Part shown: one piece after another, positions 19,784 to 38,779 of the stretch
Numbering within the stretch: position 1 is the stretch's first letter
Layout: each line of letters begins with the position of its first letter
From: Thiotrichaceae bacterium
Lineage (GTDB): Bacteria; Pseudomonadota; Gammaproteobacteria; Thiotrichales; Thiotrichaceae
Direction: 5' to 3'
Assembly: GCA_023144895.1 (NCBI GenBank)
Contig: JAGLEV010000040.1
Location: forward strand, 1 to 41,837
DNA: 41,837 nt
Program-made: the position numbers and the translations under genes
Notes under the pieces: model-generated
The model's input: only the letters and a program-made list of their open reading frames with translations
What the model was told of the DNA's origin: nothing
Databases searched by the model: none

Positions 19784-21187
19784 TTAATACTTCTGTTGTT
19801 TCTCTAGTTTATACTCACGTGCTTTTAAAGACTTGCGTTTTTTGTTCCAATTCTCAGTGTTAACAATATCTTCAGCATCATTGCTAATCTCTTCACTATA
19901 GACGTTTAACTCTGCTCTATTTTTAGAATCCAGTGTGCTGTTTTTTTCTTTAATAAAGTTCACACTTTTGCTGAGTAAAAGACCCGCTTCTTTTCTTTGA
20001 CCTTTGTCGCGTAGTTTTACCGCTTTTTTACGATACTCATTGACGACTTGCTTGGTAGCTTCTATGACAACAGGTTGATTAATCGCTTGTTTAACTTCCT
20101 TTGCAACAGCACTATAAGTTACGCTGAGTTGATTGTCTAACTGCTCACGTTTTTTATAACGCATATTTTGATAATCAACTTTAACGGATGCCACTGCTTT
20201 AATTTCTTTGGCTTTACCTTCAGGAATTTCCACTTCGAGTAAAATATATTTTTCTTGCTCACTATACAGCTGATTTAAACGTGTTTTAATGATATTACCT
20301 TTAATATCACCTTCACGACCAAGGAGGCGAATGGGTTTGACACCCTCTGATAAGGTAATATTAATCATTACATCTTGTGCAACAACGGATAGTACATCAC
20401 CAAATTCATATTGAAAAACTTTAGCAAGGTCAGCAGCATTTTCAACAAAGGCATGATTACCATCACTATAACCTGCAAGCTGAGTCATTAAGTCTTCATT
20501 GTAACCCACTCCTAAGCCAATAGTGGTGACACTCATACCTTCTTTACTTAATGCTGCACCTAGCTGACCTAACTCAGAAGGAGAGCTAGGACCTTGATTC
20601 GCCTGTCCATCAGAAAGCAAAATAATACGATTGATCCGCTCTTTATCTAGAAATTTACGAATCTCACCTGCACCTTTACTCACTCCTGCAAATAAGGCAG
20701 TAGAACCATCGGCTCGAATACGTTGAATAATAGATTTAATGTGTTTTTTATCACTGACCTTAGTGGCAGGAACAAGGACACCCACTCGTGTGTCGTAGCC
20801 AATAATCGATAAAATATCATTCTTATTCAGCAGGTCAACAGCTAGTAGTGCAGCCTCCTTTGCCCGCTTCATCTTTTCACCATTCATGGATCCCGAACGA
20901 TCTAAGACAATAGCAATATTAGCAGGAGTACGATCTGCTTTGCTATCGAGTTTAAAACCAGTCAAAGAGACTTTAATAAATGTTTTATCTTTTTGACCAC
21001 TCAGCATAATCGGTGCACTGAGGTCTGCTTGTAGATGGATTTGTGTGGCTTTTTTTGAATGCATTTGTGGTGCTTCACGCGCAGCGCTATTGAAGCTGAA
21101 ACTTGCAAGTCCCGTTATTAGTAAAAAGTTACCTAGATTTTTTCCTAGATTGAGTAGTATTTTGTGTTTTTTCATTATTGATCTCAT
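19784..21187 (-). CDS. exported von Willebrand factor A (VWA) domain protein
   Basis: A 467-aa protein with an N-terminal signal peptide (within 1-37, ending FNSAARE). The central VWA domain (about 88-265) has a complete metal-ion-dependent adhesion site: DRSGS (DxSxS), the Thr in GSTALFAG, and the Asp in LLSDGQANQG. A C-terminal beta domain and a Lys/Glu-rich helical tail follow. The protein resembles the VIT/VWA proteins encoded beside marine sortase systems, but I see no sortase gene and no sorting motif. The first ATG lacks a binding site; ATG 21175 (MKKHKILLN) follows GAGAT and may be the true start. It is the first gene of an operon with the sensor kinase and regulator. Confidence 0.85.
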   Translation of the reverse strand: MRSIMKKHKILLNLGKNLGNFLLITGLASFSFNSAAREAPQMHSKKATQIHLQADLSAPIMLSGQKDKTFIKVSLTGFKLDSKADRTPANIAIVLDRSGSMNGEKMKRAKEAALLAVDLLNKNDILSIIGYDTRVGVLVPATKVSDKKHIKSIIQRIRADGSTALFAGVSKGAGEIRKFLDKERINRIILLSDGQANQGPSSPSELGQLGAALSKEGMSVTTIGLGVGYNEDLMTQLAGYSDGNHAFVENAADLAKVFQYEFGDVLSVVAQDVMINITLSEGVKPIRLLGREGDIKGNIIKTRLNQLYSEQEKYILLEVEIPEGKAKEIKAVASVKVDYQNMRYKKREQLDNQLSVTYSAVAKEVKQAINQPVVIEATKQVVNEYRKKAVKLRDKGQRKEAGLLLSKSVNFIKEKNSTLDSKNRAELNVYSEEISNDAEDIVNTENWNKKRKSLKAREYKLEKQQKY

Positions 21188-21846: not shown

Positions 21847-24800
21847 ATGAAAGATAATAAAAAACCAGTGATTATGTTGCTGGGGGCAGTGAGTGGGGGG
21901 AAGTCTGGGCATACAGCGTTATCTTCTGTACCTAAAGAATTGAGTGATATTAATGACTTATTTAATCACTTTAAAGACAAAGAGGATTCTTTTAACGTTG
22001 AATATGAGCCCTATTTAACTTCCAGTCGGCTCATTCATTTGTTAAATAAACATGTTAATAATTTAGCAATGATTCATTTCTCTGGTCATACAAATGATGA
22101 ATCTATTGTACTTAATGATCATGTGATTCATTCTGACTATCTAGCTGAAATCTTTGCAACATGGGAGCATAAACCTAGTTTATTTTTTCTCAATGGTTGT
22201 GATAATGATGAGCAAGTTGCGCCTTTACTTGATGCTGGCTTATTAAGCGTAATTTATACTACAAGCCTCATTAATGATGCATTAGCTGCTAATTTTTCAG
22301 AAGAATTTTATAAATCACTCTTTTCTAACCAAGGGGTCACTAGTTTAAATAATGCTTTTTTACGAGCAAAATCCTCAGTAAAGATAATAAGTGATGAGAC
22401 ATCTCGTTCATTTTCTTTAAGCTCCTCATCGCATCATAATAATGAGCTTAAAACAGGAGAGTCTTGGAATATTGCTGTAAAGTGCGATAAATATCAAGAC
22501 TGGACACTACAACAAATTTTAACAAATTCAGAGTCAAATTTTGATAAAGAGGGTGTGCCAGAAAACCCCTATCAAGGTCTATCAGCCTTTACTGAGGAAG
22601 AGAGTCAATTTTTCTTTGGTCGAAGTGAAGTGGTCGCAGAAATACATCAGGAAATAATCAAAAAGCCAAGGTTGTTTTACTTATCGGGAGCGAGTGGTAC
22701 AGGGAAAACATCGATTATTAATGCGGGACTTATTCCACTATTACGTCAGGAAGAAGAGTGTTTAATAATAAAATTTAGACCTTTAGAAGATCCTTATAGC
22801 CAGTTGGCAGCTTGTTTAAGTGATATTTATTATCCCGATAGCGTCACTAAAAGGCTCAAGCAACAAGTTAATCTGACCGTCATGCTAAAAAATGATGATG
22901 TTGAACTAAGTCAAATCATTGATGATATTCTAAGGAAAACGACTAAACGGCATGTCTATCTCCTATTAGATCAGTTTGAGGAGTTATTCACCTATAGCAC
23001 CGCACCTACATTTATTCCAACACTATTATCATTGCTTGCCAGCGATGCTCTTGCCACCGTTATTATTTCAACAAGAGCAGGGTCATCAACTCATTTTTAT
23101 CAACACCCTCATTTTGCATCATTTTTAGATAGTAACCCTAAGAAAACACTTTGCCAAATGAGTCATTCTGAACTGAGAGAGGCAATAGTTCAGCCAGCGA
23201 AGATGCTACAAGTGAGCTTTGAAGCAGGAGTTGTTGAAAGGCTTATTAAAGACCTTGATCATAAGTCGGGTCAGCTTCCTTTGCTTGAATTTTGCTTGAC
23301 TCAGCTTTGGGATAAACAAAAGTATTTTGAATTAAGTAATGAGAGTTTGACAGAAATTGGTGGAGTTTCTGAGGCTATTTCTAATCATGCTGAACAATTT
23401 TATAAAAGCTTAAACCCCGTTGAGAAGGAAAAATTGCGCTCTATATTATTGCTTATGGTGCACCTGAGTGATTCAGCAGAGGCAACACGACAAATATCGG
23501 ACTATTTGCCTGAAAATAAAGTAGAAAAAGACTTATTTCATAAGCTGTTAAAAGCGCGAATAATCACTTCTAATATCAATTCATATAAACATACCCAGCA
23601 ATATGAACTAGTACATGAGGCACTGATTGATAAGTGGCCAAGAATGCAACGCTGGATACATGAATCTAATGACCTGATTGTTTTTAAAGGGGATATTAAT
23701 CCTGATATTTCAAAATGGAAAAAGCATGGTAATTCTAGGAAAGCTTTCCTTCATGGTTTTAGGTTGTCTGAAGCGAAGTTATTGATAAAAAAGTATAGAG
23801 ATGAGTTTAGTGAAGTGGAAATTAATTTTATTGAAAAAAGTATTAATTATAATAGGCAGTGGAAATTTTTACTGTATTTAACAACTTTTATTTTTGTTGT
23901 GTCATTAGTGCTTATATCATATAAGGGGGAGAAAAAAGAGGCTACGATGAGAAAAACAGCGGTTGTTGCTTCTAAAAGTATGATGAACACTCTTCATAAG
24001 CACTTGGAGCCTATGGCAAAACTATCAGAAATTGTTAAAGCTAATCAAGATTTTATGGAGTCTTATAATATGTTTAACCTTGGGGAAGTTGATAAACAAA
24101 GTAATAATTCTATCCTATTACTTTCAACTGCTTTTAGACGTGCTGCTGAGGCATTACTGTTACAAAGAGAATATACACTGGGAATGAAGCATATTAATAA
24201 AAGTATTCTATTATTAGAGCGTATTAAAGGTTTGGGTATTAATAATGACTTTAAGCTTAACTTAGTTAAGACATACACCATTAAGAGTCAGTTATATAAA
24301 GCAAGAAAACTTTATACTCAGGCTGTTGAGTATCAGAGTAAAGCACTGGAGATTATTAAGAAATTATCTGATAAAGAAATAGAAGGGTCAAAGTATAAGT
24401 ATAATCATTTTTATTCAAAAAGTTTATCTTATTTAGCCGATGTCCAGTCTAAAGAAAGTCAATCTATCACGGTATTACAATCATCTTTAAAGAAAATAAA
24501 ACAAGCAATCGATATTGATAGAAGTATACCGAAAAAAAATATTGAAGATTATAATCGTGATTATAAATATCCTAAACTCAGTGCGTATAACCTATATCGT
24601 TATGCACAAGTTTTGGGTAAATTAAAACGATATGATGAGTCTCTTCAGTTTCATCGTAAGTCGCTAGCGATTAGAGAAGATCTTATGGATAAGTGGCATC
24701 ACTATGTTTGGATTAAGATTGATTCTATTGCGTCATATTATGCTATTGCTAAGTTATATGAAAGACAGGGAAGTTTAGCAACAACAAGATCTTATTTGGA

Positions 24801-24990
24801 AAAATGCTTGTTAATACTTAGAGGGCTAAAAGAGCAGGGCTTTCTTGCAAAGCGCTATGAAACATGGATCACTACTGATGAAAAATATCTCAACTGTATC
24901 AATAAAAAACTAGATGGCGAGAGTGTGTCAGGCTTTTGCTTTGAAAAATCTAAAAGGCTTAAGTTAAAGCAAGCTGTTATGTCGGAATGA
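21847..24990 (+). CDS. membrane-anchored CHAT/caspase-like protease - nSTAND NTPase - TPR protein
   Basis: A 1047-aa protein from ATG 21847 (a TTG at 21832 would add five residues; GGGGCG precedes the ATG). Domains: (1) residues about 5-215, caspase/CHAT-like, with candidate catalytic H81 (IHFSGHTN) and C118 (FFLNGCDN). (2) A STAND NTPase from N240 (NPYQGLSAFTEEE...FFFGR), with Walker A at 281-288 (GASGTGKT), Walker B ending at D375 (YLLLDQFEEL), and winged-helix phrases QLPLLEFCLTQLW and ELVHEALIDKW. (3) One membrane span, about 671-693. (4) A TPR-like helical region, about 765-1010. STAND proteins oligomerise on sensing a trigger. Here oligomerisation could activate the protease head and the caspase encoded next, whose ATG overlaps this stop codon by 4 nt. 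The TPR part may be the sensor. Function is inferred from architecture only. Confidence 0.85.
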   Translation: MKDNKKPVIMLLGAVSGGKSGHTALSSVPKELSDINDLFNHFKDKEDSFNVEYEPYLTSSRLIHLLNKHVNNLAMIHFSGHTNDESIVLNDHVIHSDYLAEIFATWEHKPSLFFLNGCDNDEQVAPLLDAGLLSVIYTTSLINDALAANFSEEFYKSLFSNQGVTSLNNAFLRAKSSVKIISDETSRSFSLSSSSHHNNELKTGESWNIAVKCDKYQDWTLQQILTNSESNFDKEGVPENPYQGLSAFTEEESQFFFGRSEVVAEIHQEIIKKPRLFYLSGASGTGKTSIINAGLIPLLRQEEECLIIKFRPLEDPYSQLAACLSDIYYPDSVTKRLKQQVNLTVMLKNDDVELSQIIDDILRKTTKRHVYLLLDQFEELFTYSTAPTFIPTLLSLLASDALATVIISTRAGSSTHFYQHPHFASFLDSNPKKTLCQMSHSELREAIVQPAKMLQVSFEAGVVERLIKDLDHKSGQLPLLEFCLTQLWDKQKYFELSNESLTEIGGVSEAISNHAEQFYKSLNPVEKEKLRSILLLMVHLSDSAEATRQISDYLPENKVEKDLFHKLLKARIITSNINSYKHTQQYELVHEALIDKWPRMQRWIHESNDLIVFKGDINPDISKWKKHGNSRKAFLHGFRLSEAKLLIKKYRDEFSEVEINFIEKSINYNRQWKFLLYLTTFIFVVSLVLISYKGEKKEATMRKTAVVASKSMMNTLHKHLEPMAKLSEIVKANQDFMESYNMFNLGEVDKQSNNSILLLSTAFRRAAEALLLQREYTLGMKHINKSILLLERIKGLGINNDFKLNLVKTYTIKSQLYKARKLYTQAVEYQSKALEIIKKLSDKEIEGSKYKYNHFYSKSLSYLADVQSKESQSITVLQSSLKKIKQAIDIDRSIPKKNIEDYNRDYKYPKLSAYNLYRYAQVLGKLKRYDESLQFHRKSLAIREDLMDKWHHYVWIKIDSIASYYAIAKLYERQGSLATTRSYLEKCLLILRGLKEQGFLAKRYETWITTDEKYLNCINKKLDGESVSGFCFEKSKRLKLKQAVMSE

Positions 24991-26915
24991 TTAAAGTCCT
25001 CCTCATCGGTATAAACCACTACTTATCTCCAAAGATAAACGCTCTACGTGGATGCACCAATGATGTAAAACTCCTACACCAGCTCTATACCGACCGCTTT
25101 GCCATCCCTGAGAATCAAATAAAAGTTCTCATTAACGATGAAGCGACGAAAAATAATATAGTCACTACATTCCAATCCCATCTCCAAACGGCGAAAGCAG
25201 GGGACTCTGTTGTTTTCTATTTTTCGGGTCATGGTTCCCGCGAGCCTGCCCATAAAGATTTTTGGACAATTGATACGGATAAAGCACTGGATACTTTGGT
25301 TTGTTATGACAGCGGGGTCGAGGCAACGCTCTTAGCCGACAAAGAGCTACGCTTTCTACTATCAGAATTACCCCAAGATTTATCACAGGTAGTGGTTATC
25401 ATTGATAGCTGTCATTCAGGCTCGGTAACACGGACAAGCAAGGATATTCGTTCTCGCCATACTTTTTTATTGACTCAACCAAGACAGTCAGAAGATTTTA
25501 TTTTCTATCGTAAAGCCAAAGAAGAAGGCTGGGCAGATAACTTAGGGCAAGTGCCACAAGGCAAGCATATTTTGCTATCAGCCTGCCGTAGTACAGAGAC
25601 TTCGATTGAAAAATCGATTCGACGCCGACCTTATGGTGTGTTTACCTACTCACTTGCTTCCCTTTTAAATCGTCAGAGCAATGGTTTGAATTATTTTAAT
25701 CTATTCAATCATGTGCGTCGTTTGACTCGACAACATAATTTATTACAAACACCACAAATATATTCATCAAAATCAGAAATTAAACAACTATTTCTAGGTA
25801 ATGAAAAGCGTAGCATTGGTATAATAGCAAGCTATGAAAATGATGCTTGGTGGTTGAGTCAAGGTTTTATGCAGGGGCTAGGTGAAGAGGATCAACTGAT
25901 TCTAACGGTCGATCCTGAGTTGTCTTTTTCCAGCAAAATAGTGACCGTGTGTGAGTCCTTGGCAGGGAAAAGCAAGCTATATGACTCTACCGTATTACAA
26001 AAATTGGATAAAAAACAAAATTATCCTGCAACACTCATCTTATCACAGCAGAGTAAACTTAAATTTAGTATCAATGCTCCTAATGATTGTTACCTCAGTC
26101 TATTGAGTGAACTAGAGACTTTACACAAAAAATTATCGCCTTCATTATTTATTACTCATGATGAATCTGCCGCTGAATATCAGATAGTTTATGAGGAAGG
26201 GAAGTTTTTCATTGGTATTGTGAATGAGCTGTCATTTAAGCCACTCTTTGAACCCAAATTACAGGCACGAGAAACGCTATTCGCACTAGAGCATATTCAA
26301 CGATGGGAGCAAAAGCTAGCACTTGAAAATATTGAAGAAGGTGACTTAAGTCGGGACAGTGTGCAATTATTTATTACCGTTAATGGTCGAGAGTATTGTA
26401 ATGAAGATATTGTCTTGGATTTTGATGGTAAGCAGGGAATAAAGATAACAATTTCAGCTCGCTGTAATCCTGATAACTTGCCAGCAATTAAGCTATATGG
26501 TGCATTATTACTATTTGATAAAGGTCGTCGGAAAATAGTGGTTGATGCTAATGAAGCCTTATTAATTCCTTCCTCTGGTGATTCAGAAAAGTGTCAGTTT
26601 AACTTTCTAGAAGGTCGCACTTTAACGTGGATTATTTCTGATGCTTTATTGAGTCAAGGTATTCAGGAAACAACGGACTATATCAAGCTTATTATCAGTG
26701 ATAGCCCCTTTGATGCAAACTTGTTGGAGCAAGGTGCAATTGAAGAATTTAATGGTGAATATAATAAAAAGGCAGTGACTCGTTCCTCACTTAATCACCT
26801 GCTCAATCAAGCGATAGATTATAGCCAAATGCGTAGCTCAGTAAATCATACAATTGACCTTGCTCCTCAATGGTTCTGTCAAACGATTGAAGTAACAACG
26901 CGTTTAGTCGTATGA
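24987..26915 (+). CDS. caspase-family (C14-like) cysteine protease
   Basis: A 642-aa protein. The N-terminal caspase domain (1-225) has the clan CD dyad H82 (YFSGHGS) and C142 (IIDSCHSGS), the usual opening VLLIGINHY, a second-strand block LRGCTNDV, and LLSACRSTETS...GVFTYSLASLL towards its end. Residues 230-642 have no recognised domain. They are largely beta-rich and contain the phrase TDYIKLIISDSPFDANLLEQ, which I recall from C-termini of other bacterial caspase-family proteins. No signal peptide or membrane span. The ATGA overlap with the STAND gene indicates translational coupling and a matched pair. Arg/Lys substrate specificity is likely if it behaves as a metacaspase, but this is not shown. 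Confidence 0.9.
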   Translation: MIKVLLIGINHYLSPKINALRGCTNDVKLLHQLYTDRFAIPENQIKVLINDEATKNNIVTTFQSHLQTAKAGDSVVFYFSGHGSREPAHKDFWTIDTDKALDTLVCYDSGVEATLLADKELRFLLSELPQDLSQVVVIIDSCHSGSVTRTSKDIRSRHTFLLTQPRQSEDFIFYRKAKEEGWADNLGQVPQGKHILLSACRSTETSIEKSIRRRPYGVFTYSLASLLNRQSNGLNYFNLFNHVRRLTRQHNLLQTPQIYSSKSEIKQLFLGNEKRSIGIIASYENDAWWLSQGFMQGLGEEDQLILTVDPELSFSSKIVTVCESLAGKSKLYDSTVLQKLDKKQNYPATLILSQQSKLKFSINAPNDCYLSLLSELETLHKKLSPSLFITHDESAAEYQIVYEEGKFFIGIVNELSFKPLFEPKLQARETLFALEHIQRWEQKLALENIEEGDLSRDSVQLFITVNGREYCNEDIVLDFDGKQGIKITISARCNPDNLPAIKLYGALLLFDKGRRKIVVDANEALLIPSSGDSEKCQFNFLEGRTLTWIISDALLSQGIQETTDYIKLIISDSPFDANLLEQGAIEEFNGEYNKKAVTRSSLNHLLNQAIDYSQMRSSVNHTIDLAPQWFCQTIEVTTRLVV

Positions 26916-26949: not shown

Positions 26950-27606
26950 ATGGAATCTACATTTTGGTATGAACGTTGGAAACAAGGTCAAATCGGTTTT
27001 CATGGACTAGAGGTTAATACATGGCTAATAAAATATTGGCCACATGTTACCAAGTCAATGGAAAATAAAAAAGTATTTGTTCCATTGTGCGGTAAAACGC
27101 TAGATATGTTGTGGCTACAAGATGAAGGCTATGAGGTTATTGGCTGTGAAATTAGTCCCATTGCTGTACAAGATTTCTTTAGCCATAATAAGCTTGAAGT
27201 CAGTCGCACAATAGAAGGTGAGTTTGAAGTCTGGCAATCAGGTAATATTACCCTTTATTGTGGTGATTTCTTTGCATTAAAGCCAGAGCAATTAGAAGGC
27301 TGTGGCATCATCTATGATCGAGCTTCCTTGATTGCTTTGCCAGAGTCTATGCGTAACCAATATGCTAAGCATCTTCTACGATTAGCGCAACCTCAAAAGA
27401 CTCAGATCTTATTAATCACCCTTGAATATGATCAAGAAAAAATGAGTGGACCTCCATTCTCTGTGAGTACTGAACAGATTAATGATTATTACCAACAGCA
27501 CTTTACTATTGAATGCTTATCATCAAAAGATGTACTGAATGAGGCTCCAAACTTTAAAAAGCGTGGTTTAACGCATCTTACTGAGAATGTATTGTTACTT
27601 TCTTGA
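26950..27606 (+). CDS. tpm: thiopurine S-methyltransferase (TPMT) family protein
   Basis: A 218-aa SAM-dependent methyltransferase. The N-terminal FWYERWKQGQIGFH and the SAM block VFVPLCGKTLDMLWLQDEGYEVIGCEIS are diagnostic for the TPMT family. A late RASLIALPESMR block (about 125-136) also fits. Bacterial members methylate thiopurines or selenium and tellurium compounds; the physiological substrate is unknown. It lies 34 bp after the caspase gene with a strong binding site (AAGGAAA), so it may be read with the STAND-caspase pair. It looks like a housekeeping or detoxification passenger rather than part of that system. Confidence 0.9.
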   Translation: MESTFWYERWKQGQIGFHGLEVNTWLIKYWPHVTKSMENKKVFVPLCGKTLDMLWLQDEGYEVIGCEISPIAVQDFFSHNKLEVSRTIEGEFEVWQSGNITLYCGDFFALKPEQLEGCGIIYDRASLIALPESMRNQYAKHLLRLAQPQKTQILLITLEYDQEKMSGPPFSVSTEQINDYYQQHFTIECLSSKDVLNEAPNFKKRGLTHLTENVLLLS

Positions 27607-28043: not shown

Positions 28044-29879
28044 TCAAGGCTTGAGTTCAGGTACGCTACGTTCAAATAAAGCCTCATACGTCATTTGTGC
28101 TAATAGACGTATTTCTTTATTACTATAGTTGCTCAGTTTTTTGTAGATTTTAATTTTCTTATTGACGCTCGCATCGTAATGGGGTGTTACCTTTCCTGTC
28201 TGATCCATAGAATCCATTGCATTGAGTATCATGCTAGAGGCAAAATATTCTGCTTGCCCTTTGGTCATAGGGTTAAGAGAGAAGATAAGTATTTTACTCA
28301 GCCATATATTGTGTCCTTTTTCCGTACTGGCAAGTTGCGAAAGATAAGCACCTAATTCTTCCAAAGTATGATCAATCCCGTCAGCCGTTAACTCCTCTTT
28401 AAATAATGTTTTTATCCACGCTAAATCTTGCCAATGCTTCTTATCAATCTGATGATAAGCCTCATGGTATTCAATGCTGGGTAATATGACATCATTAAGC
28501 TTTTTTAATAGTGCCTTAGTTTTATTATCAAGTACTAATTCAGCAGGTTTCTGATCGGTTGGTTTTTTATCTAATTGAGTTAATAAAGTGCTAATTGCAT
28601 CAAAACTACCCCCAAATAAATTACTACGACTTGTATTGTCCTTAGGGCGTTGCAAAGTTTGTTCTAGCTTGGCATTGAGCATTCGTTCTTTATTTTTAAT
28701 AATTTTCTTAATGGTTACTTTTATCTTAGTACGCTCATCAGGCTCTGTGTAAATACTAAAAAGATCTTTTGTATAACCCTTAGTAATCGCTTCTTCTATT
28801 TCATAATCACCCTGTATCCAATAGGGGATGATATATTTACGTCCTTGGAAGGTGAGTGCGGGTAAAACCGATTCTTCTTCAAAGTGAGAAATTCTATCGT
28901 TAAGAATAATAGAGCCATGACCTAAATCTTTAAAGGTTAATCCTAGAGCACCATCAACGGCAGGAACCTTGTCAATTCGCTCTACATGAAAAAGAGGTAG
29001 CTCTATTTTCTTTGTCGCTTTATCTGAACTTGTATCCCTATAATAAAGCTGATTTCGCTGGCTTACCTTGTAGGCGGTCATCATCGTTGTACGGCAAAGC
29101 TTTAGCTTCTTACCAAGACCCTCCATGCGCTTTTCTATCTTTTTGATGATTATCTTTTCTTCCTTAGTGCTTTCAATTAATGATGAGCATTGGACAGAAA
29201 ATGATTTTGGCGAGAGATAAAAAGGTATCCCTTTTTCATCAAAGAGTTTATTCACAGACTTGAAACCTAAGAGAATCTCCTTGCTAGTCGTTGTAGGGTC
29301 TTTAAGCTTAATAATTTGTTCAGCAATACGATCTTTTATGCCATAGCGTTCGGGTAGCTCATCCAGTATCTCTTGCTGTATTTTGTCTATCAGAAGATCA
29401 AAACCTTTATGCTTTGCTTCACTATTGCCATCACTATATTTTAATAATAGCTTTTGGTGTAATAAGTCAGAAAAATAAGGTAGCTTGTGGGTAATAACAT
29501 TTTCTATCTGTTGTAATTGCTGTTGATTATAAAAGTGATAACCTGCTAATGCTAAAGTAATTAGTAGTAGAGGATAGATAATAATGGGTTGAAATATTTT
29601 TACTAAAAAGAATTGACTCTGGGTATTGTACTTCCCCCCACCGATAAGCTCTTGTGTTAATAGGCTCTGGTAATCTTCATTCGCTATAGGATAAATTTTA
29701 TTGAGGCGAAAGGATTGTAGTATTTTTAGCTTTAGCTTTTGATAGCGCAGTGCTAATAAATAGCGTAGTGGATAAATGATCCCTGTATAAGTGCTCGGGT
29801 TTTCAAAGATATCCGTCGTCATCGCATTGAGACTATGGGGTACTTTTTGAATGCTTGAGAAGATAATTTTATTAAGCAT
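28044..29879 (-). CDS. membrane-anchored HExxH putative metallopeptidase
   Basis: A 611-aa protein from ATG 29879, which overlaps the previous stop as TAATG; a GTG at 29897 would add six residues. One membrane span lies near 100-122 (IIIYPLLLITLALAGYHFY), after a cytoplasmic N-terminus of about 95 residues. The large remainder includes H472-E-A-Y-H476 (IEYHEAYHQID) with a possible third ligand at E507/E508 (HTLEELGAYLS), a spacing and context like gluzincin metallopeptidases. No known family was recognised. It ends a five-gene operon with a proton-channel subunit, two ExbD-like proteins and a TPR protein, so it may be the effector or load driven or gated by that complex. The catalytic claim rests on the motif alone. 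Confidence 0.65.
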   Translation of the reverse strand: MLNKIIFSSIQKVPHSLNAMTTDIFENPSTYTGIIYPLRYLLALRYQKLKLKILQSFRLNKIYPIANEDYQSLLTQELIGGGKYNTQSQFFLVKIFQPIIIYPLLLITLALAGYHFYNQQQLQQIENVITHKLPYFSDLLHQKLLLKYSDGNSEAKHKGFDLLIDKIQQEILDELPERYGIKDRIAEQIIKLKDPTTTSKEILLGFKSVNKLFDEKGIPFYLSPKSFSVQCSSLIESTKEEKIIIKKIEKRMEGLGKKLKLCRTTMMTAYKVSQRNQLYYRDTSSDKATKKIELPLFHVERIDKVPAVDGALGLTFKDLGHGSIILNDRISHFEEESVLPALTFQGRKYIIPYWIQGDYEIEEAITKGYTKDLFSIYTEPDERTKIKVTIKKIIKNKERMLNAKLEQTLQRPKDNTSRSNLFGGSFDAISTLLTQLDKKPTDQKPAELVLDNKTKALLKKLNDVILPSIEYHEAYHQIDKKHWQDLAWIKTLFKEELTADGIDHTLEELGAYLSQLASTEKGHNIWLSKILIFSLNPMTKGQAEYFASSMILNAMDSMDQTGKVTPHYDASVNKKIKIYKKLSNYSNKEIRLLAQMTYEALFERSVPELKP

Positions 29880-31480
29880 TAGTGTGCCTGTATCCACTGT
29901 AAGATTTGATCGATACTCTTGATGCGTTGCTCCATAGGCTGAGGTTCTTCACAGCTAGAAACAGCGACTAACTTAATGATTTTCTCCTTCATTTCTTTAT
30001 CATAAGTCGATGTTTCTAAGCTATGAATAAAACCAGACCAATCCCAGCCACAAATAAATTCAGGGATCAGTTTATATCGGCTACGAAGGTTCTGAAGTGA
30101 AATGATAGCCGTCGCATTATCTTTATTCTGGAGATAATAAATAGCCGTTAATGTATCCTTGATTTGTTTGTAAGGATCAGTGAGTAAGCCACTACTATTG
30201 ATTTCTTCCAATAGCGCCTTAAAGGTTTCAATATCTACATTATCAGTAACATAGGCTTCCATAAGATCAAGGTTGATTTCTGAAATAACTCTAAGCATTG
30301 AGGCGGTTTTATTTTTACGCCCTTTCAGTGTTTTACGAGCGGTTATTAACTCATTCATCGCGGTGGGTAGGTCACCAAAATATAACCATGCCAGTACGGC
30401 TGACTCTCGGTGGCGTGAAGCAACTTCAGAAAGGGTGATGTCACCTATCTTTTCGGCATGTTTTAACGCATCTTGATAACATCGATAGGCAGCTTGTGCT
30501 TCCTTTATCTTACCTGCACGGTGATAGCTAATCGTTTTGTACCAGTAGATGGTATTAATATAGCTGCTATCAGTACATTGTAGCTTTCTCGCTTGTTTTA
30601 AGGTGTTTTCTATATCTTTCGCTTGAGAAAAACACTCAATAGAAAGGCTATCAAGAATAACTTTAATTTCCTTTTCTGACTCTCTAAAATTGAGTTGTTT
30701 AATAATGGTTTCTATTGATGATTCTAGTTTTTTACAGTCTTTTTCTGTTTTTAGAATAGCCCAGTAGGACTGCATTAATACTGCAACGCCTTTACGTGGC
30801 TTTCCTGAGGCAAGAGACATTTCTTGTTTTGTGCACTGTACGGGAGCTTCATGGGCGCATTGAAAACGGGCTTGAGCCTCTTTGCCTTTATTTTTACCTT
30901 TATCGAGTGATTCTTGTTGTTCACGTTTAAGCTGACTCAGTGAGTTAGGCTTCATTAATGATAATAAAAAATCCTCAGTTGACTGTGTCACTGAACCATT
31001 GGATTCAAAACTAATTTCTGGGTTTTGCTTTTTTAAGGTTGACATTATTTCTACGAGTTGTCGTTTAGCAAGCCAGTTGGTAAAGGCAAACTGCGGTTCT
31101 TTATTGCTGCCATTGAGTTCCTCTGGTTTATTTGACATATTCCAGTAAATAATGGCACTGAGTAATATCACTAAGAAAGGAAATAAAGTATATAATAGGA
31201 ATGTTTCAAATACCTTTTTACGTCGTAGTACTAACTGTTGCTCTAGTGATATTCCTCGTTGCTGAGTGCGCTGATCAGTGAGCTGTATCGTTTCTTTGTA
31301 GCTTTTTATTGCTTCTTTAGTTTCACCTAAATGACGTTGTAACTCAGCTAAAACATAAATTAATTCAGGATTATCAGGATCTTCTTTAAGCTTTATTTTT
31401 ACATAAAAAAGTAGCTCTTTATTGGATATATCTTCTTTTAGATCCCAACGTTTTCTGAGTTGTGAAAATAGTGTGCTCAT
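29879..31480 (-). CDS. membrane TPR-repeat protein
   Basis: A 533-aa protein. The N-terminal 90 residues contain a TPR (DNPELIYVLAELQRHLGETK, then EAIKSYKETIQ). A membrane span (LLYTLFPFLVILLSAIIYW) lies near 96-114. The rest, probably periplasmic, is helical and TPR/SEL1-like (for example TIYWYKTISYHRAGKIKEAQAAYRCYQDALKHAEKIG), with several cysteines. It is probably a scaffold of the complex. Its ATG overlaps the preceding stop by 4 nt (ATGA), and its own stop overlaps the next ATG (TAATG), so the products are made in fixed ratio. Confidence 0.7.
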   Translation of the reverse strand: MSTLFSQLRKRWDLKEDISNKELLFYVKIKLKEDPDNPELIYVLAELQRHLGETKEAIKSYKETIQLTDQRTQQRGISLEQQLVLRRKKVFETFLLYTLFPFLVILLSAIIYWNMSNKPEELNGSNKEPQFAFTNWLAKRQLVEIMSTLKKQNPEISFESNGSVTQSTEDFLLSLMKPNSLSQLKREQQESLDKGKNKGKEAQARFQCAHEAPVQCTKQEMSLASGKPRKGVAVLMQSYWAILKTEKDCKKLESSIETIIKQLNFRESEKEIKVILDSLSIECFSQAKDIENTLKQARKLQCTDSSYINTIYWYKTISYHRAGKIKEAQAAYRCYQDALKHAEKIGDITLSEVASRHRESAVLAWLYFGDLPTAMNELITARKTLKGRKNKTASMLRVISEINLDLMEAYVTDNVDIETFKALLEEINSSGLLTDPYKQIKDTLTAIYYLQNKDNATAIISLQNLRSRYKLIPEFICGWDWSGFIHSLETSTYDKEMKEKIIKLVAVSSCEEPQPMEQRIKSIDQILQWIQAH

Positions 31481-32112
31481 GGAGTATCTTTACCTAAATA
31501 GGCTGGCAGATAAGTACAGCTTTCATTAAATGCTTCATCACAGATAATCATCGGATTTTCTGCACTAACGGGTTGCCATCCTGTTTTTATATGATATTTT
31601 TTAAGATATTTCCTCGCTTGTCGAAAGGCTTCAAAACCATTGGATGCGGTTTCATCATCACTATCATAAACAAAAAAGTAAGCAAATTGTGTCTTAGGGT
31701 CAATATGGGTAATGCTTTTGTGTAATGCTGATGTGTTTTTTTCTAGAGCCTGAGTTTTAGACCATTGGCTAATATCATGTACATGGAATGATATTCCACT
31801 ATTTTCTTTACTATCGACTTGTCCATACAGCCCAAAATAATCCAATGGAAATATACGTTTATTCTCAGACATTCCCTGAGTGATCTGTACCGTTGTACTT
31901 TCAAATATTTTAGTCATATTTATCGGGAGAATACGATCACCTTTAGCGATAAAAAAAATAGGTTTTAACTCAGTGGCATGTTCTATTGGAATTTCTAACT
32001 GGTAAGTTTTACTATCATCATGAATCAGGTTAATAACAGCAAAAATAATCAAGATGCCAACAGAGTTGGATACAATATCGGTGAGTGAATCAAGGCTAAT
32101 TAAGTTATTCAT
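31477..32112 (-). CDS. ExbD/MotB-like single-span protein (Asp present)
   Basis: A 211-aa protein with one N-terminal membrane span (about 12-29). The segment SLTDIVSNSVGILIIFAVI resembles the ExbD/TolR pattern P-L-x-D-x-x, with D12 at the position of the essential proton-carrying Asp. The periplasmic part (about 30-211) is not recognisable and lacks an OmpA-type peptidoglycan-binding domain. It includes FYRQARKYLKKY-like and EAFRQARKY helices and two cysteines near the C-terminus. The start shares one base with the upstream stop (TAATG). It probably pairs with the neighbouring ExbD-like protein around the channel subunit. Confidence 0.6.
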   Translation of the reverse strand: MNNLISLDSLTDIVSNSVGILIIFAVINLIHDDSKTYQLEIPIEHATELKPIFFIAKGDRILPINMTKIFESTTVQITQGMSENKRIFPLDYFGLYGQVDSKENSGISFHVHDISQWSKTQALEKNTSALHKSITHIDPKTQFAYFFVYDSDDETASNGFEAFRQARKYLKKYHIKTGWQPVSAENPMIICDEAFNESCTYLPAYLGKDTP

Positions 32113-32729
32113 TATCGTTGGACACTCTTTTTAATATTCAGCGTCCAATTGGGATCAAGAGGCTCTAAGCCGATACTAATAGAACGAGCATCTTGCAATA
32201 GTGTCATCACATCACGTATTTTCTGATAAACCTGCCCACCATTGGGGTAGATACCAAAGAGTAAAAATTCCTCATAAAGATGATTAGCTTTCAGCGCAAG
32301 CTCATTAAGCACACGGATGTCATGTGTGATTTGCACAATATCAATGATATCTGCTGAACTGGCAATATCCATTGCTGATCCAGGCTGTTGTTCTAGTGTA
32401 CGAATTGCTTTTTTACGGCGCTGAATAATTTCCTCAATGGTTTTCTTATCAGTATTATCAACGGCCTCTTTTAATTTTTGTAAGTGAGTGACGGGAGGTA
32501 AGCTAATCATTCCATCAGGCAAGCTAAAAATCTGGTATGCCACTTTATAGCCATGCTCTAATTTTGCAGTCAGTTCAATTTTTTGTGGTGTGCTAAAGCT
32601 ACTCAATACATTAATAAATGACAATACACCCATAACACAAAGAAAAATGCTTAAAAAAGGAAAGAGGCTAATTTCTAGCTTTTGTCCTTGATTATAGCGT
32701 TGTGCTTTGATGGCTCGTGACATTGCCAT
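32112..32729 (-). CDS. ExbD/MotB-like single-span protein (Asp absent)
   Basis: A 205-aa protein with a basic N-terminus and one membrane span (about 20-45, LFPFLSIFLCVMGVLSFINV). When FPFLSIFL is set against the ExbD motif xPLIDVML, the essential Asp position is a Ser. The periplasmic part is helical, with no OmpA-like domain. It starts 2 nt after the stop of the channel-subunit gene. With the next gene, this forms an unusual pair of two different ExbD-like proteins beside one MotA/ExbB-like subunit. Confidence 0.6.
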   Translation of the reverse strand: MAMSRAIKAQRYNQGQKLEISLFPFLSIFLCVMGVLSFINVLSSFSTPQKIELTAKLEHGYKVAYQIFSLPDGMISLPPVTHLQKLKEAVDNTDKKTIEEIIQRRKKAIRTLEQQPGSAMDIASSADIIDIVQITHDIRVLNELALKANHLYEEFLLFGIYPNGGQVYQKIRDVMTLLQDARSISIGLEPLDPNWTLNIKKSVQR

Positions 32730-32731
32730 TG

Positions 32732-33994: not shown

Positions 33995-35410
33995 TTACAG
34001 CACTAATCGAACGGCAGGATCACCCAATACAATATAATTTCTTGCATCATTGCGACTAATATAAGTATTACTCACTTCGCTATCACTAATAGGAAATCCA
34101 TCCTCACGACTCAAGTCATCCAAAATAGCATCCATTTCTAAAGCCTGTGCAGCATGATAATCATTCATTGCTTCCATCGCATGACCAACATGTTTGCCTA
34201 GTAATATCTGATCGATACAGCTTTTAATCGACGCGGTATTGTCAGCACGCATTCGACCAATAAAAGAGCTAGACCATGCTCTATCCACATGAGCAATAAT
34301 AGCGCCAGCACCAGAGGTTAATAATCGAGTAGGGAGCTGGCTAATAAAATCTTGTTCTGCAATTTGTTCTGCTTTATTCGTTATTTTTTTACGAAAATTG
34401 TCATATTGTGGTGTCGCGCCACTGTAACAAGCAAAAATAAACACAATCATGCCTTGTAAATTAAGGTCAGTTTTTAAGTCACGACCTGCATAATAAAAGT
34501 CTTCTGGAATGGGTTTATTCCACTGGTGTCTTCCTGGCCAATCACTACAGAGTAATGCACCTTGATCATTCGCTTGGCGAGGGTCTTCTTGATCAAAGCC
34601 CATGCCGTGTGAAGCGGTGAGAAGAAAAGAGGGTGGTTTATCTTGGTGAAGTAAGTAATGCAAGGATTCTTTTGTTGCATCTGCATTCTCAACAAGCTCT
34701 AATGACCAGTTTGAATGTACGCTATTGAGCTTTTTATAGAGTGGATGGATAAGGTATTGGCTACTTTGTTGAGTTGAGCGGTCATGATTGTTTTTAACAG
34801 AAAATAAGGTCGCTTGCTTGCTCTGTGTGGTATTTTCTTTTTCACGGCGTACAACTTGCTGGGCATAGATTGCATATTCTTTAACAGTATCAAAATAAAT
34901 ACGCCCCACAGCATATTGGGTATCGAGATTATATTGAAATGAAAAGGGAATATCTTTGGGTGAGCCTACCAGCAAAATATAATAAGGCATATTTTCAGGA
35001 TCAACCGCCCCCATGCCAGCACCTTGCCGTGCTAGCCACCGACTAATACGAACTTCTGAACCACCACGATAACGCCGTTTTTTTAATAATTTTCCTGCTT
35101 GTTGTGTGCGGTGTTCAATGAGAGGGTAGAGCGCTTCGATAACTTCGCTACGATTAGCCAGACTATCAGCAATAACAATCGCCCAGCCTGCTTTTTCAAT
35201 GGGTCGAAAGCCACCTTCACCTTCTACTGAAAGGTCGACGGCTTTAGCGTTTTCTTTACTTTCTAGTAAGTCTAGTTCTTCAGAAGTCATCGGCTGACCC
35301 TGAGCCACTTTACTTATATGCTGTGCGCTTATTTCTTCAAAGAGATAAGCCCCTGTAGAGCCATTAATACCATTAAAGTGAATTAGCTCCTCATCTTCTA
35401 TACGATTCAT
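33995..35410 (-). CDS. gingipain/C25-like clan CD cysteine protease
   Basis: A 471-aa soluble protein without a signal peptide. The clan CD dyad is H268 (LLTASHGMG) followed 60 residues later by C328 (VFIFACYSGA), both at the ends of hydrophobic beta strands as in caspases and gingipains. Upstream phrases YYILLVGSPKDIPFSFQY and YAVGRIYFD, and the C-terminal NYIVLGDPAVRL, match the usual peptidase C25 outline. It differs from secreted gingipains in lacking export and immunoglobulin-like domains, so it probably works in the cytoplasm. It is the last gene of a four-gene operon and the third caspase-fold protein within 14 kb. Confidence 0.8.
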   Translation of the reverse strand: MNRIEDEELIHFNGINGSTGAYLFEEISAQHISKVAQGQPMTSEELDLLESKENAKAVDLSVEGEGGFRPIEKAGWAIVIADSLANRSEVIEALYPLIEHRTQQAGKLLKKRRYRGGSEVRISRWLARQGAGMGAVDPENMPYYILLVGSPKDIPFSFQYNLDTQYAVGRIYFDTVKEYAIYAQQVVRREKENTTQSKQATLFSVKNNHDRSTQQSSQYLIHPLYKKLNSVHSNWSLELVENADATKESLHYLLHQDKPPSFLLTASHGMGFDQEDPRQANDQGALLCSDWPGRHQWNKPIPEDFYYAGRDLKTDLNLQGMIVFIFACYSGATPQYDNFRKKITNKAEQIAEQDFISQLPTRLLTSGAGAIIAHVDRAWSSSFIGRMRADNTASIKSCIDQILLGKHVGHAMEAMNDYHAAQALEMDAILDDLSREDGFPISDSEVSNTYISRNDARNYIVLGDPAVRLVL

Positions 35411-35448
35411 AAATACCCCAATAGCCCTGTATTCTGATAGTTTGTTAA

Positions 35449-36453
35449 TTAACAGTTAGATGGATCATAAATAATCTTGGTTTTATCCTCAAATATAACG
35501 GCTAAATTAACGGCTTGGAGGATGTCTCTAGGTTCATTTGAATTGAGTGACATGATCTCTAAAATGAGATAGAACAAATCAAAGCTAAAGTTCATAATCA
35601 CCATTGCATTATCTCGACGAGAGATATTACGTTGTAGGAAGGTTTTGATTGCTTGCTCATCATTATCTAGAAAAATATTACGGTTGTCAGTAATCGTCAG
35701 CGCTCTATTGCTATCAAGTCCACGAATCGCTTCATAGGTATTGCTATTGCCTAATTCGCTGGCAATCCAGATATTGGTACCACCACCAAGACGGGTTGGA
35801 TTTAGTGTAATACGAGCATTGTCATGACATTGGTTGCTATTAATTTTACCGCTCTTTAATCCATTGAGGGCAATGCCGTGTTCGCTTGGTGTGGAGAGTT
35901 TGCAATGGCTAATCGTTATATTTTCAAAACGCCCATCGGAGCCAAAGATGCCCTGTAGCTTGGAATCACTCGCATGGATATTGGCATAAGAAATGGTTAC
36001 GTTTTTAAGTATGCCGCCTGCGAATCGATGGTACTTTGGAATAAGCTGAATACCATCACGGTGTGCTGTACCATGAGTGGCTTTATCGGTGATCTTGCCC
36101 TGTTTGGAGAACTGTATCACGCTGTCATCAGAGCGAATATGCATGGCATCAGTAGTAAAGTCATCGATTATTCTATCAACGTAGATATTATTTTTCTTAT
36201 CGATAATATAAGGACCAATATGGTTCTGAGCTTGCCGTCGTTGGAGTAAGCTTATGGGAATCTTTTTCTCACTGAGAACAAAATCATCTAAGCCAAAATC
36301 ATCGGAATCCTGATCATCAGGTATTGATGTATCCGTATCAGCGTTTTTACAAAGTGCAATGCTTTGTTGAAAAATTGCTAATAAATACTCTTCACTCCCT
36401 TCAGCTTCAATATTGACCGCACCACATTGTAGTTTGATTTTTCCTGTTAACAT
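35449..36453 (-). CDS. right-handed beta-helix protein with small N-terminal domain
   Basis: A 334-aa protein with no signal peptide. Residues 1-35 form a small beta-beta-alpha unit (KIKLQCGAVNIEAEGSEEYLLAIFQQSI), of a type I recall at the N-terminus of some bacterial conflict proteins. An acidic linker (38-58) follows, then a region (about 75-250) whose repeating short strands (GILKNVTISYANI, RFENITISHCKLS, GIALNGLKSGKI) indicate a parallel beta-helix. HRDGIQLIP is typical of pectate-lyase-like or phage tailspike folds. A C-terminal helix pair ends the protein. The binding site is strong (AAGGAG). It may bind or cleave a polysaccharide; function unknown. Confidence 0.6.
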   Translation of the reverse strand: MLTGKIKLQCGAVNIEAEGSEEYLLAIFQQSIALCKNADTDTSIPDDQDSDDFGLDDFVLSEKKIPISLLQRRQAQNHIGPYIIDKKNNIYVDRIIDDFTTDAMHIRSDDSVIQFSKQGKITDKATHGTAHRDGIQLIPKYHRFAGGILKNVTISYANIHASDSKLQGIFGSDGRFENITISHCKLSTPSEHGIALNGLKSGKINSNQCHDNARITLNPTRLGGGTNIWIASELGNSNTYEAIRGLDSNRALTITDNRNIFLDNDEQAIKTFLQRNISRRDNAMVIMNFSFDLFYLILEIMSLNSNEPRDILQAVNLAVIFEDKTKIIYDPSNC

Positions 36454-36476: not shown

Positions 36477-37352
36477 TTAGAATTGGCGCTTAAATTGCTG
36501 AGTGATCAAATCGTTGGTTTCACTTTCTTGATCTAAAGAAAATGAAAAATTATCATCAATGAGTAAGTTTTCTTCTTCACTCAATAAACGTTGATGCCAG
36601 CGTTTGGCGAGCTTGGCAATATGATGTTGCTTGTCTCGACCATTAACCACACGACGTGCATTGACGTAATCTGTTTGGTTGGCATTAATGTATAAACCCA
36701 GTCGTTTTCCCGTAAATAATCCAGTCGCCATGCCATGCACTAAGATAAAGAGGGAGAGACTTGGATCCATGACTTTATCAGGGTTATTCAATAAATCGAT
36801 ACCCAGTAATTTGCTATATTTTTTATAGTTATAGTCATGAGTGAGTTGTACATATCCACGACCATAATAGGGGTAGTATTTGAAGTGTTTTTTGCGATAA
36901 GCATCCGATAACCAATAGGCTTCTTTAACGGGCTGGTAGGTTGCATTGGTTTCATGTTCAGTCGTTGCTAAAATATATGCCATTTGAGTTTTAAGTGGCA
37001 GACCCTGCTTCAAGCAGGTTTTTATTACAGATTGTTGAAATGAGGGTTTGTCTTGATCAAAGCTCGAAGGAATGGCTTTTTCACCAAGATGAATGCGCAG
37101 GAGGAGAAACTCTGCAACCGTCGGGGTGAGCAAATAGTCATGACTAAAATTTTCAGACTCAATAAAGTCTTGTAGTGCCGTTTTGGTGATTAAGCCAAAG
37201 TTTCCATCAATCGTGTAGAGGTAGTAGCCAAGGAGGCTCAGAATCGTTTGAATTTCTTGGCAAAGATCGGGGTCATCATAGAGTGTATTGTGATGCGTGT
37301 TGCCAAAATAGATTACTGTGTTATTGTCAATAATAGACTGTAGTGATGCCAT
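36477..37352 (-). CDS. GH19-type lysozyme/chitinase-like protein with peptidoglycan-binding domain
   Basis: A 291-aa protein. Residues about 28-85 are a PG_binding_1-like repeat (CQEIQTILSLLGYYLYTIDG, NFGLITKTALQDF). Residues about 105-260 are a glycoside hydrolase family 19-like domain with candidate catalytic E132/E134 (ATTEHETNATY), E144 and YYGRGYVQLTHDYNYKKYS. Such domains occur in endolysins and muramidases that cut peptidoglycan. There is no signal peptide, so it would need lysis, a holin or a secretion system to reach its substrate. It is the second gene of the four-gene operon, 26 bp after the hydrolase gene. No phage genes are nearby. Confidence 0.78.
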   Translation of the reverse strand: MASLQSIIDNNTVIYFGNTHHNTLYDDPDLCQEIQTILSLLGYYLYTIDGNFGLITKTALQDFIESENFSHDYLLTPTVAEFLLLRIHLGEKAIPSSFDQDKPSFQQSVIKTCLKQGLPLKTQMAYILATTEHETNATYQPVKEAYWLSDAYRKKHFKYYPYYGRGYVQLTHDYNYKKYSKLLGIDLLNNPDKVMDPSLSLFILVHGMATGLFTGKRLGLYINANQTDYVNARRVVNGRDKQHHIAKLAKRWHQRLLSEEENLLIDDNFSFSLDQESETNDLITQQFKRQF

Positions 37353-37378: not shown

Positions 37379-38779
37379 TTAGCGAATAGCTTCCCAGAAA
37401 GCATGGGCTATTTCAGGATGAGCAATATCGCTATGAGCACCTGCTACGCCTGATTGTGGTTTCATGTATTCACTGGTTTCTAGGTTGTAAAAGGTATTTG
37501 CTTTGAAGTGGTAAATTTCTTGGCTATTGCCCAGTGTGCGTTTTTCTATTGGGATGCCATGCCCTTGTATGCCATAAGCACCGAGACCCGCATGTTGTGG
37601 TAAGGACATGGGATCAAAGCTGTTGCCTTGGAAGAATGCTGCCTTGGCTGCTAAGGTGTAAACGGTGGTTATTGCAGTATCATTAAAGGTGTGAGTTGCT
37701 ATGATTGGACCAGAAATATGGTCACTTGAGCTTAGTGATTGATAGTAGCCTGCTGTTCCTGCATTAAGGGGAATATCATGACAATAAGCCCAGATAGAAA
37801 CCGCACCTTGTACCAAAAATAGTGTGTTAACAGGGCGTAGTGGTGATTCTTTTGCCCCTTGCCCTGTGATACAAGAGGACATAACGATAGCCCCTAAGCT
37901 GTGACCCATGAGATGAAATTGTGTATTGCTATTGGTGAGACTCTGTAATTCTCTCAGTAGTTGAGTTGCACCTTTTTCACCAAATAAGCGTGCTCTTTTT
38001 TTCATTTTCCAGAAGGAGAGCTGAGAAAGTGCGCCAAGTAATGCACCATAGGCTTTGTCCATAATGCCAAAGTCGCTAAGGTCTTCATCTTCTTGTTCTA
38101 ATAGCAAGGTATAAAATTCTTCAAAATCAAACTCAGGAATGTCTTCACCAGGTGCGGCAAACTCAGTCCCTTTTTTTAGCTCAGCTGATTGCATCAGTTG
38201 TTCAAAGGCTGCTAATAAATCATCATTTAAGTATCGAGGGCTAGCATCTTCAGCAGAAGCATCAAAGATCGTTTGAATTGCAGTCACTGCGGCGCTATCG
38301 CTTGAACCAACAACTTCTTTAGCAATGGCTTGGTAATCAAGCTTAGCAGGAGTGGTATTGGTCTTTGTTGTAGCAGTAGAAAAATCATCGAATGTGTATT
38401 CATCCTCCTCATTTTCTACTGCTATTGCACTGATAGGGCGATGTTCTTCCATTCCATAAGGTAAACTAGGCCAATGTAAGCCAACAATTAAAGGCTTAAA
38501 CCCCTGTGGTCTTGCTTCCAAACGAGCAATATCATTGCCACATTGCAACATGGTGGAAAACCATAAGTCATATTGTGCAATAGCGGCAGGAATATCACCT
38601 TTCCATCCATGGCTAGAGAAGAAAATATCAGTGTAGTCACCTTGGTTCGCCTGTTCTTTTACGACAGTGCTTAGGATGCCATTGCTGGTATCTGGGTCAT
38701 CATTTCGCTCAACGCCTTTTGCGTTATAACAGATGAGATAATAAGAAGTATTACTATTTGGTATAGTATGTATTGGCAT
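37379..38779 (-). CDS. alpha/beta hydrolase (lipase/esterase-like)
   Basis: A 466-aa protein without a signal peptide. The nucleophile elbow is GHSLG with S294 (FHLMGHSLGAIVM), and the early strand-turn DIFFSSHGWKGD (about 51-62) is the usual oxyanion region. Candidate His residues lie near the C-terminus (AGAHSDIAHPEIAHAFW). A poorly conserved acidic insert (about 120-240) separates the two halves and may be a lid or interaction domain. The binding site (AAGGGG) is good. It is the first gene of a four-gene operon with a lysozyme-like, a beta-helix and a C25-like protein. The substrate (lipid or peptide) is not predictable. Confidence 0.75.
   Translation of the reverse strand: MPIHTIPNSNTSYYLICYNAKGVERNDDPDTSNGILSTVVKEQANQGDYTDIFFSSHGWKGDIPAAIAQYDLWFSTMLQCGNDIARLEARPQGFKPLIVGLHWPSLPYGMEEHRPISAIAVENEEDEYTFDDFSTATTKTNTTPAKLDYQAIAKEVVGSSDSAAVTAIQTIFDASAEDASPRYLNDDLLAAFEQLMQSAELKKGTEFAAPGEDIPEFDFEEFYTLLLEQEDEDLSDFGIMDKAYGALLGALSQLSFWKMKKRARLFGEKGATQLLRELQSLTNSNTQFHLMGHSLGAIVMSSCITGQGAKESPLRPVNTLFLVQGAVSIWAYCHDIPLNAGTAGYYQSLSSSDHISGPIIATHTFNDTAITTVYTLAAKAAFFQGNSFDPMSLPQHAGLGAYGIQGHGIPIEKRTLGNSQEIYHFKANTFYNLETSEYMKPQSGVAGAHSDIAHPEIAHAFWEAIR

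Follow-up and report, generated by a model that had tools for sequence, protein, structure and literature searches.

A CHAT-nSTAND1 gene overlapping a caspase gene

The window analysed here is a contig of 41,837 nucleotides from a Thiotrichaceae bacterium (JAGLEV010000040.1, assembly GCA_023144895.1), on the forward strand of which two genes share the four nucleotides ATGA as stop and start. The first gene encodes a STAND protein, here called P1, and the second a caspase-family protein, P2 (Table 1). An original prediction, made from the letters alone, had already described the 4-nt overlap, the length of P1 as 1047 residues, its dyad H81/C118 and its Walker A motif at residues 281-288, all of which agree with the sequence to the residue or nucleotide. 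P1 starts at an ATG (21847) with GGGGCG upstream, and an in-frame TTG at 21832 is a possible alternative. H81 lies in FSGH, C118 in FLNGC, and the Walker A motif reads GASGTGKT.

Pfam was run on 28 of the 30 open reading frames of at least 100 residues in the window. The nSTAND1 family (PF20703) covers residues 241-631 of P1 with an E-value of 2.6e-86 (291 bits versus a cut-off of 27), and TPR_12, TPR_10 and TPR_8 score above their cut-offs in the tail, confirming the NTPase and the TPR tail that had been predicted. Gly284, Gly286, Lys287 and Asp375 of the NTPase are invariant over 11 aligned rows. The hydropathy profile predicts a single membrane helix where the NTPase meets the tail (residues 674-692), in support of the membrane anchor of the original prediction, and a second, weaker hydrophobic stretch (389-407) inside the NTPase. 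A hydrophobic helix follows the NTPase in 14 of the 15 nSTAND1-bearing relatives scanned, L063 being the exception. Should 674-692 be the sole crossing, a cytoplasmic NTPase would put the TPR tail in the periplasm. The predicted structure of P1 has a mean predicted local distance difference test score (pLDDT) of 65, mostly 70-90 in the head and NTPase and largely below 50 in the tail. Orc/Cdc6 ATPases rank first among the fold matches of the NTPase, with Apaf-1 (3shf), Avs4 (8dgf) and the plant NLR RPP1 at lower ranks.

The head of P1 is of the CHAT type by homology and by its His/Cys dyad, its own score against the CHAT model PF12770 lying below the cut-off (E 0.035, 14 bits versus 24). The assignment follows from its relatives, from a profile match and from the predicted fold, and agrees with the CHAT-like, caspase-fold head of the original prediction. 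Seven of the eight head-bearing relatives scanned are above the PF12770 cut-off (E 4.6e-8 to 5.1e-14); the eighth, L055, has at least 25 Pfam rows, dominated by WD40 among the matches listed. A profile of 13 heads matched a single chain in the PDB at E-values up to 0.1, namely 8tl0 (E 3.8e-17), with H81 and C118 of P1 opposite a His and a Cys. Over 228 columns (3.8 Å), the predicted fold of P1 could also be aligned with 8tl0_C, an entry titled 'Structure of activated SAVED-CHAT filament'. Among 23 aligned heads, comprising 22 strong ones (that of the window included) and a fragmentary copy of 222 residues in genome G057, Cys118 is found in all and His81 in 22, the fragmentary extra copy being the only head without it. 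The tails of the head-bearing relatives vary between TPR, WD40, and FGE behind a TIR insert. At two loci (L063, 523-3981, and L072, 132-1193) a CHAT head of the P1 family is fused to TIR, and in one of them also to nSTAND1 and FGE. These fusions resemble a CHAT-TIR protein of Thiohalocapsa that is the target of a diversity-generating retroelement (Dore 2024, PMC10907252).

The caspase assignment of P2 with H82/C142 is likewise confirmed by Peptidase_C14 (PF00656, E 4.8e-25, 89 bits versus a cut-off of 21.4). H82 stands in SGHG and C142 in DSCHSG, and both are present in all ten aligned caspases, so that the catalytic residues are kept in P2 relatives as well as in the heads. The best solved relatives of the C14 domain are plant metacaspase-4 and -9. 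For the MID region behind it, a model with a pLDDT of 58 gave weak fold matches only, to the caspase-Ig structure of MALT1 and to other beta-sandwiches, and to call MID Ig-like would therefore be a guess. Both the P1 head family and the P2 caspase family have a single match in their own genome.

In 14 of 16 genomes the match of the caspase-MID relatives extends further, into an alpha/beta-hydrolase part at the C-terminus, although in a few of these genomes it is cut or split by contig ends. In one relative scanned, it matches PF24096 (DUF7379) and PGAP1 in Pfam, and the solved chains nearest to it are Bacillus lipase A-type lipases. P2 and the caspase of G024 do not have it, and the genome of the window contains two DUF7379 matches, neither reaching the cut-off. 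We considered the loss of the hydrolase from P2 by a frameshift and rejected it: a thiopurine methyltransferase (TPMT) gene begins 35 nt past P2, the listed open reading frames from P2 to 29897 contain no hydrolase as judged by eye, and the G024 caspase stops at the same point.

Table 1. Coordinates of the features of the P1/P2 pair and of possible further components in the window.
Feature	Position	Strand	Evidence
P1, 1047 aa: CHAT-type head, nSTAND1 NTPase, membrane helix and TPR tail	21847..24990	+	
CHAT-type caspase-fold head of P1, residues ~1-232, dyad H81/C118	21847..22542	+	motif, profile, alignment, predicted fold
nSTAND1 NTPase of P1, residues 241-631, Walker A 281-288	22567..23739	+	Pfam, alignment, predicted fold
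Predicted membrane helix of P1, residues 674-692	23866..23922	+	hydropathy
TPR repeats of P1, residues 808-946	24268..24684	+	Pfam
ATGA stop/start overlap of P1 and P2 (4 nt)	24987..24990	+	sequence
P2, 642 aa: metacaspase-like C14 protease, residues 3-261 (H82/C142), and MID region, residues 273-642	24987..26915	+	
471-aa Peptidase_C25-like protein, possible further component	33995..35410	-	E 3.3e-5, just above cut-off
Beta-helix-like protein, possible further component	35449..36453	-	Pfam below cut-off
Peptidoglycan-binding and GH19 phage-type endolysin, possible further component	36477..37352	-	only GH19 match in genome
466-aa alpha/beta-hydrolase-like protein, possible further component	37379..38779	-	GHSLG motif; Abhydrolase_8 E 0.05, below cut-off

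Recurrence of the head-caspase pair

We surveyed the pair in 63 genomes of the order Thiotrichales, with at least 199 bits required for a strong head and at least 485 bits for the caspase-MID family. Strong heads are encoded by 22 genes in 13 genomes, the window included, and the caspase-MID family occurs in 16 genomes. Both families are found in ten genomes (Fisher p 1.3e-5, relatedness ignored). In eight of these ten they share a contig, at distances from the 4-nt overlap to 10.5 kb and within 10 kb in seven, whereas 0.11 of ten would be expected within 10.5 kb by random placement, again with relatedness ignored. The gaps are -4 nt in the window, 62 in G007, 170 in G056, 1018 in G048, about 1037 in G046, 3181 in G058, 9298 in G055 and 10469 in G057 (9804 to the fragmentary copy there); in the draft assemblies G017 and G024 head and caspase are on different contigs. 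The linked pairs are spread over four genera (g1, g2, g7 and g8).

The gene order differs among the pairs. The head precedes the caspase in the window and in G007, and the caspase precedes the CHAT-nSTAND1 gene in g7 and g8, with a GDSL lipase gene in between in G048 and, as far as the contigs show, in G046 from a different genus. In these two genomes a small gene follows the CHAT-nSTAND1 gene (184 residues, L097, 2811-3365, and 233 residues, L074, 37-738); the 184-residue protein, the one of the two that was scanned, has no Pfam match. In a tree of the 16 caspases (FastTree, midpoint rooted, local supports), the caspase of the window groups with g3 caspases that lack a strong head (support 1.000) and that of G007 with G017 (1.000), and the g7/g8 caspases together with G024 are placed elsewhere. 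Since the linked caspases are not one clade, the pairing must have arisen or been lost more than once.

In a sample of the whole class, relatives are nearly absent. Among 369 genomes of the class, the caspase alignment matched eight, the window's own genome and seven others in which the match ends within the first 270 model positions and thus covers the caspase domain only; the head alignment matched three, its own genome and two weak ones. This class-wide sample has three members of the bacterium's own taxonomic family among the matches listed. Scans of genome collections with P1 and P2 as single queries returned pattern matches and no relatives.

A possible STAND-gated two-protease module

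From the sequence we propose, with a probability of about 0.55, that P1 and P2 form a STAND-gated two-protease module for immunity or cell death. The two-stage protease cascade of the original prediction is thus supported in part, as regards its domains, the coupling of the genes, the membrane anchor and an association that is not random. The CHAT-nSTAND1 architecture with variable tails (TPR, WD40, and FGE behind TIR) corresponds to the plan of STAND immune receptors. The helix 674-692 would hold P1 at the inner membrane and leave the CHAT head and the NTPase in the cytoplasm; the TPR tail would be the sensor. A trigger acting on the tail would lead to nucleotide exchange in nSTAND1 and to assembly, and the assembly would pack the CHAT heads together and thereby switch them on, as filament assembly does for SAVED-CHAT. 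The heads would then cleave and activate the co-translated P2, and activated P2 would cut downstream proteins, resulting in cell death or arrest; alpha/beta-hydrolases, a GDSL lipase and GH19 or muramidase endolysins would be the likely downstream machinery in this bacterial family. The domains, the dyads, the gene overlap, the predicted helix and the recurrent linkage, in relatives also to envelope hydrolases, are observed; proteolysis, its trigger, the sequence in which the proteins are activated and the death of the cell are inferred.

The same sensor and effector could also operate without a cascade, if the CHAT head docks or oligomerises the caspase, or cuts substrates of its own while the caspase activates itself by proximity. 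Induced proximity is the usual start of caspase activation, the linkage and the ATGA overlap would fit equally well, and the caspase family is also found without the head and with a fused hydrolase. However, a head that merely docks should tend to lose its dyad, whereas all 23 heads retain C118 and all but one retain H81, the sole substitution being in the short extra copy of G057. We hold a module without a cascade to be possible but doubtful. It is highly improbable that P1 and P2 are neighbours simply through the clustering of conflict genes in islands and that each acts alone. Other CHAT genes near the caspase in G055, G057 and G058, as well as the caspase genomes without a strong head, are consistent with an island, but the ATGA overlap in the window, the head directly 5' of the caspase in G007, and the order of caspase, GDSL and CHAT-nSTAND1 in G048 and, to the extent that the contigs show it, in G046 of another genus all argue against this reading.

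Several observations weigh against the proposed two-protease module. The pair is recurrent but not obligate: the shared contigs in eight of ten genomes with both families are set against six of 16 caspase genomes without a strong head (G013, G014, G018, G019, G021 and G026) and three of 13 head genomes without the caspase-MID family (G031, G034 and G038). The caspase family can thus occur without the head; in all of the six except G013, other contigs carry weak CHAT matches of 57-78 bits. The five linked cases in g8 are related and not independent, leaving four genera as the independent count. Other genes lie inside the gaps of 9.3 kb (G055) and 10.5 kb (G057), and a CHAT gene other than the family head is nearest to the caspase in G055. 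In G046 the contig that carries the head has, at its end, a short C-terminal piece of the hydrolase part (the final 75 model positions), the remainder of the caspase gene being on another contig; the G007 caspase is likewise split over two contigs. P2 does not contain the alpha/beta-hydrolase present in 14 of the 16 genomes, the model of the P1 tail and the predicted structure of P2 are poor, and PADLOC gives single-protein matches only, for the P2 caspase and, weakly, for P1 with mad8 (E 9.6e-5).

Envelope hydrolases near the caspase genes

Genes for envelope hydrolases near the caspases of relatives and in the window hint at envelope lysis as the output. In five genomes, all of g8 (G048, G055, G056, G057 and G058), a GH19 gene precedes the caspase on its strand by 23-42 nt, and in G013 the caspase is followed two genes downstream by a gene for an N-acetylmuramidase (PF11860, E 6.8e-65). 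A search of the 63 genomes with the caspase-adjacent GH19 as the query (E threshold 1e-15) found 15 GH19 genes in 12 genomes. Apart from the five next to the g8 caspases, three are in runs of TIR-nSTAND1 and caspase-TIR genes (G039, G044 and G049), four have phage genes (head, terminase or portal) nearby (G052, G042, G050 and the second one of G039), and one, situated in G057 two genes downstream of a CHAT gene, encodes a double-GH19 protein for which membrane helices are predicted. A second G048 gene has no PHROGs match in the two neighbours scanned, and the last is the GH19 gene of the window (36477-37352), 9.6 kb from P2. The remaining caspase-MID genomes have no GH19 match in this search. 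Five of the 15 proteins were compared with PHROGs, and all five matched the endolysin family phrog_181 (E 9.7e-25 to 9.3e-30); for the protein of the window, phrog_181 was outscored by a family of unknown function.

At L102 (11947-15879), a protein of 1310 residues with three hydrophobic regions and two GH19 domains is encoded two genes downstream of a 934-residue CHAT protein. A second module, consisting of TIR-nSTAND1, caspase-TIR and a GH19 endolysin, was observed at L110 (9456-15191), L111 (9680-15779) and L125 (4415-10277); its TIR-nSTAND1 protein has an FGE or TPR tail, and an extra caspase is present in two of the three.

The GH19 gene of the window belongs to a convergent run (33995-38779) located 7-12 kb from the P1/P2 pair. 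The 466-residue hydrolase-like protein and the Peptidase_C25-like protein, whose family we take to belong to clan CD, have one relative each in the 63 genomes, both in G027 and adjacent to each other; one gene away, at L090, is a convergent CHAT-nSTAND1 gene whose product carries WD40-like repeats. Each of the two genomes with the hydrolase/C25 unit thus has it in the company of CHAT-nSTAND1. The two genes of the unit are separated in the window by the GH19 and beta-helix genes, and in G039 a GH19 gene and a beta-helix relative are adjacent in a prophage-like stretch, which has the look of a captured phage cassette. The four convergent genes are possible further components of the P1/P2 module. 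Two points speak against a link with P1/P2: both the head family and the caspase-MID family are missing from G027, and 7 kb with six other genes separate the pair from the run.

A wider, tentative and rather unlikely model is programmed lysis by captured endolysins, in which STAND-gated CHAT/caspase cascades of this bacterial family would release or activate lipases (alpha/beta-hydrolase, GDSL) and peptidoglycan hydrolases (GH19, muramidase), the cell thereby using a phage-type enzyme to lyse itself ahead of phage maturation; the window pair would then act on the genes at 33995-38779. The endolysin and lipase neighbours could also belong to a housekeeping or developmental switch, with a membrane STAND protease sensing the state of the envelope or nutrients and starting programmed lysis, filament breakage or particle release. 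LypABC, which in Caulobacter causes lysis that releases gene transfer agents (PMC13236601), would be a precedent, and a membrane sensor would be in line with the hydrophobic helix that 14 of the 15 nSTAND1 relatives have behind the NTPase. However, the patchy presence of the two families (13 and 16 of 63 genomes), the variable tails and the near absence from the 369 genomes of the class give them the look of accessory conflict genes, and we consider such a switch quite improbable.

Other genes of the window

Two neighbours of the pair were rejected as parts of the module. The product of 26950-27606 is a thiopurine methyltransferase above two NCBIfam cut-offs, with no match in the loci of relatives compared. 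The vWA protein of 19784-21187, which by eye has a likely N-terminal signal sequence, is encoded by a divergent gene with no MoxR/VMAP partners, no such family being among the Pfam matches around it. Five tightly packed genes on the reverse strand (28044-33730) encode a MotA/ExbB-like protein of 332 residues that PADLOC matches weakly to ZorA (E 1.5e-6), two short proteins (205 and 211 residues) each with an N-terminal membrane helix, a 533-residue protein with weak TPR matches and a membrane helix, and a 617-residue protein with a membrane helix; they may form a machine of the Zorya or ExbB type that lacks its usual partners. A haem-NO-binding (HNOB) sensor gene (5117-5659) adjoins a hybrid histidine kinase gene (3374-5107) on the reverse strand. 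No Rfam family was found in the window.

Relation to known systems

The SAVED-CHAT of type III-B CRISPR, which in work by Steens from 2024 is said to start a proteolytic cascade from CHAT to caspase, has the CHAT protease closest to the P1 head in sequence and fold (8tl0). Both have a caspase partner, and activation by assembly would be a further likeness. They differ in the sensor, which in P1 is nSTAND1-TPR instead of SAVED, and in the membrane helix of P1 (for SAVED-CHAT, PMC11229360, PMC11417357). P1 has no SAVED match in Pfam or PADLOC, and the Pfam scan of the window found no cas gene, the scan being confined to those 28 open reading frames. Avs and other bacterial NLR-related STAND proteins have an N-terminal effector, a central STAND NTPase and a C-terminal TPR sensor. 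P1 follows this three-part plan and its fold matches Avs4, but its effector is a CHAT head, a membrane helix precedes the tail, and a caspase is coupled to it; PADLOC matched no Avs model to P1.

The CARD-NLR-like LypABC and the gasdermin operons resemble P1/P2 in combining two peptidases with a STAND-type ATPase, all of which LypABC needs for lysis (PMC13236601); the LypA peptidase differs in being trypsin-like. The Pfam scan of the window detected no CARD or gasdermin family, although remote homologues could escape it. According to Kaur 2020 (PMC7159879), caspase domains of VMAP proteins always occur with a neighbouring alpha/beta-hydrolase gene, and lysozyme-like effectors occur in a different system. 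Coupling of a caspase to an alpha/beta-hydrolase is shared with these ternary systems, but here it takes the form of a fusion (in relatives) or a nearby gene (in the window), and the EACC1-caspase model NF047832 scores below its cut-off (62 versus 140 bits). Canu, a caspase-activated nuclease (PMC12799240), may resemble P2 in having a caspase followed by a beta-rich, possibly Ig-like domain, and caspase-driven activation would be a further likeness. The Pfam matches of the genes flanking P1 and P2 include no nuclease family.

Conflict systems built on STAND proteins and caspases had been described before. They are also the subject of Kaur 2020 and a 2021 follow-up (PMC8195603), and we regard the P1/P2 pair as a variant of them. 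The titles and abstract openings listed from searches of the open-access literature, which are weak evidence, describe neither a CHAT-nSTAND1/caspase pair nor GH19 endolysins in caspase-STAND runs. P1/P2 would place a protease pair of CHAT and caspase, as in CRISPR, under an NLR-type STAND receptor, and STAND, CHAT and caspase together would be a closer bacterial parallel to the apoptosome than either alone. To our knowledge, few substrates of bacterial caspases have been identified, and envelope lysis by endolysin and lipase may provide a testable output for them.

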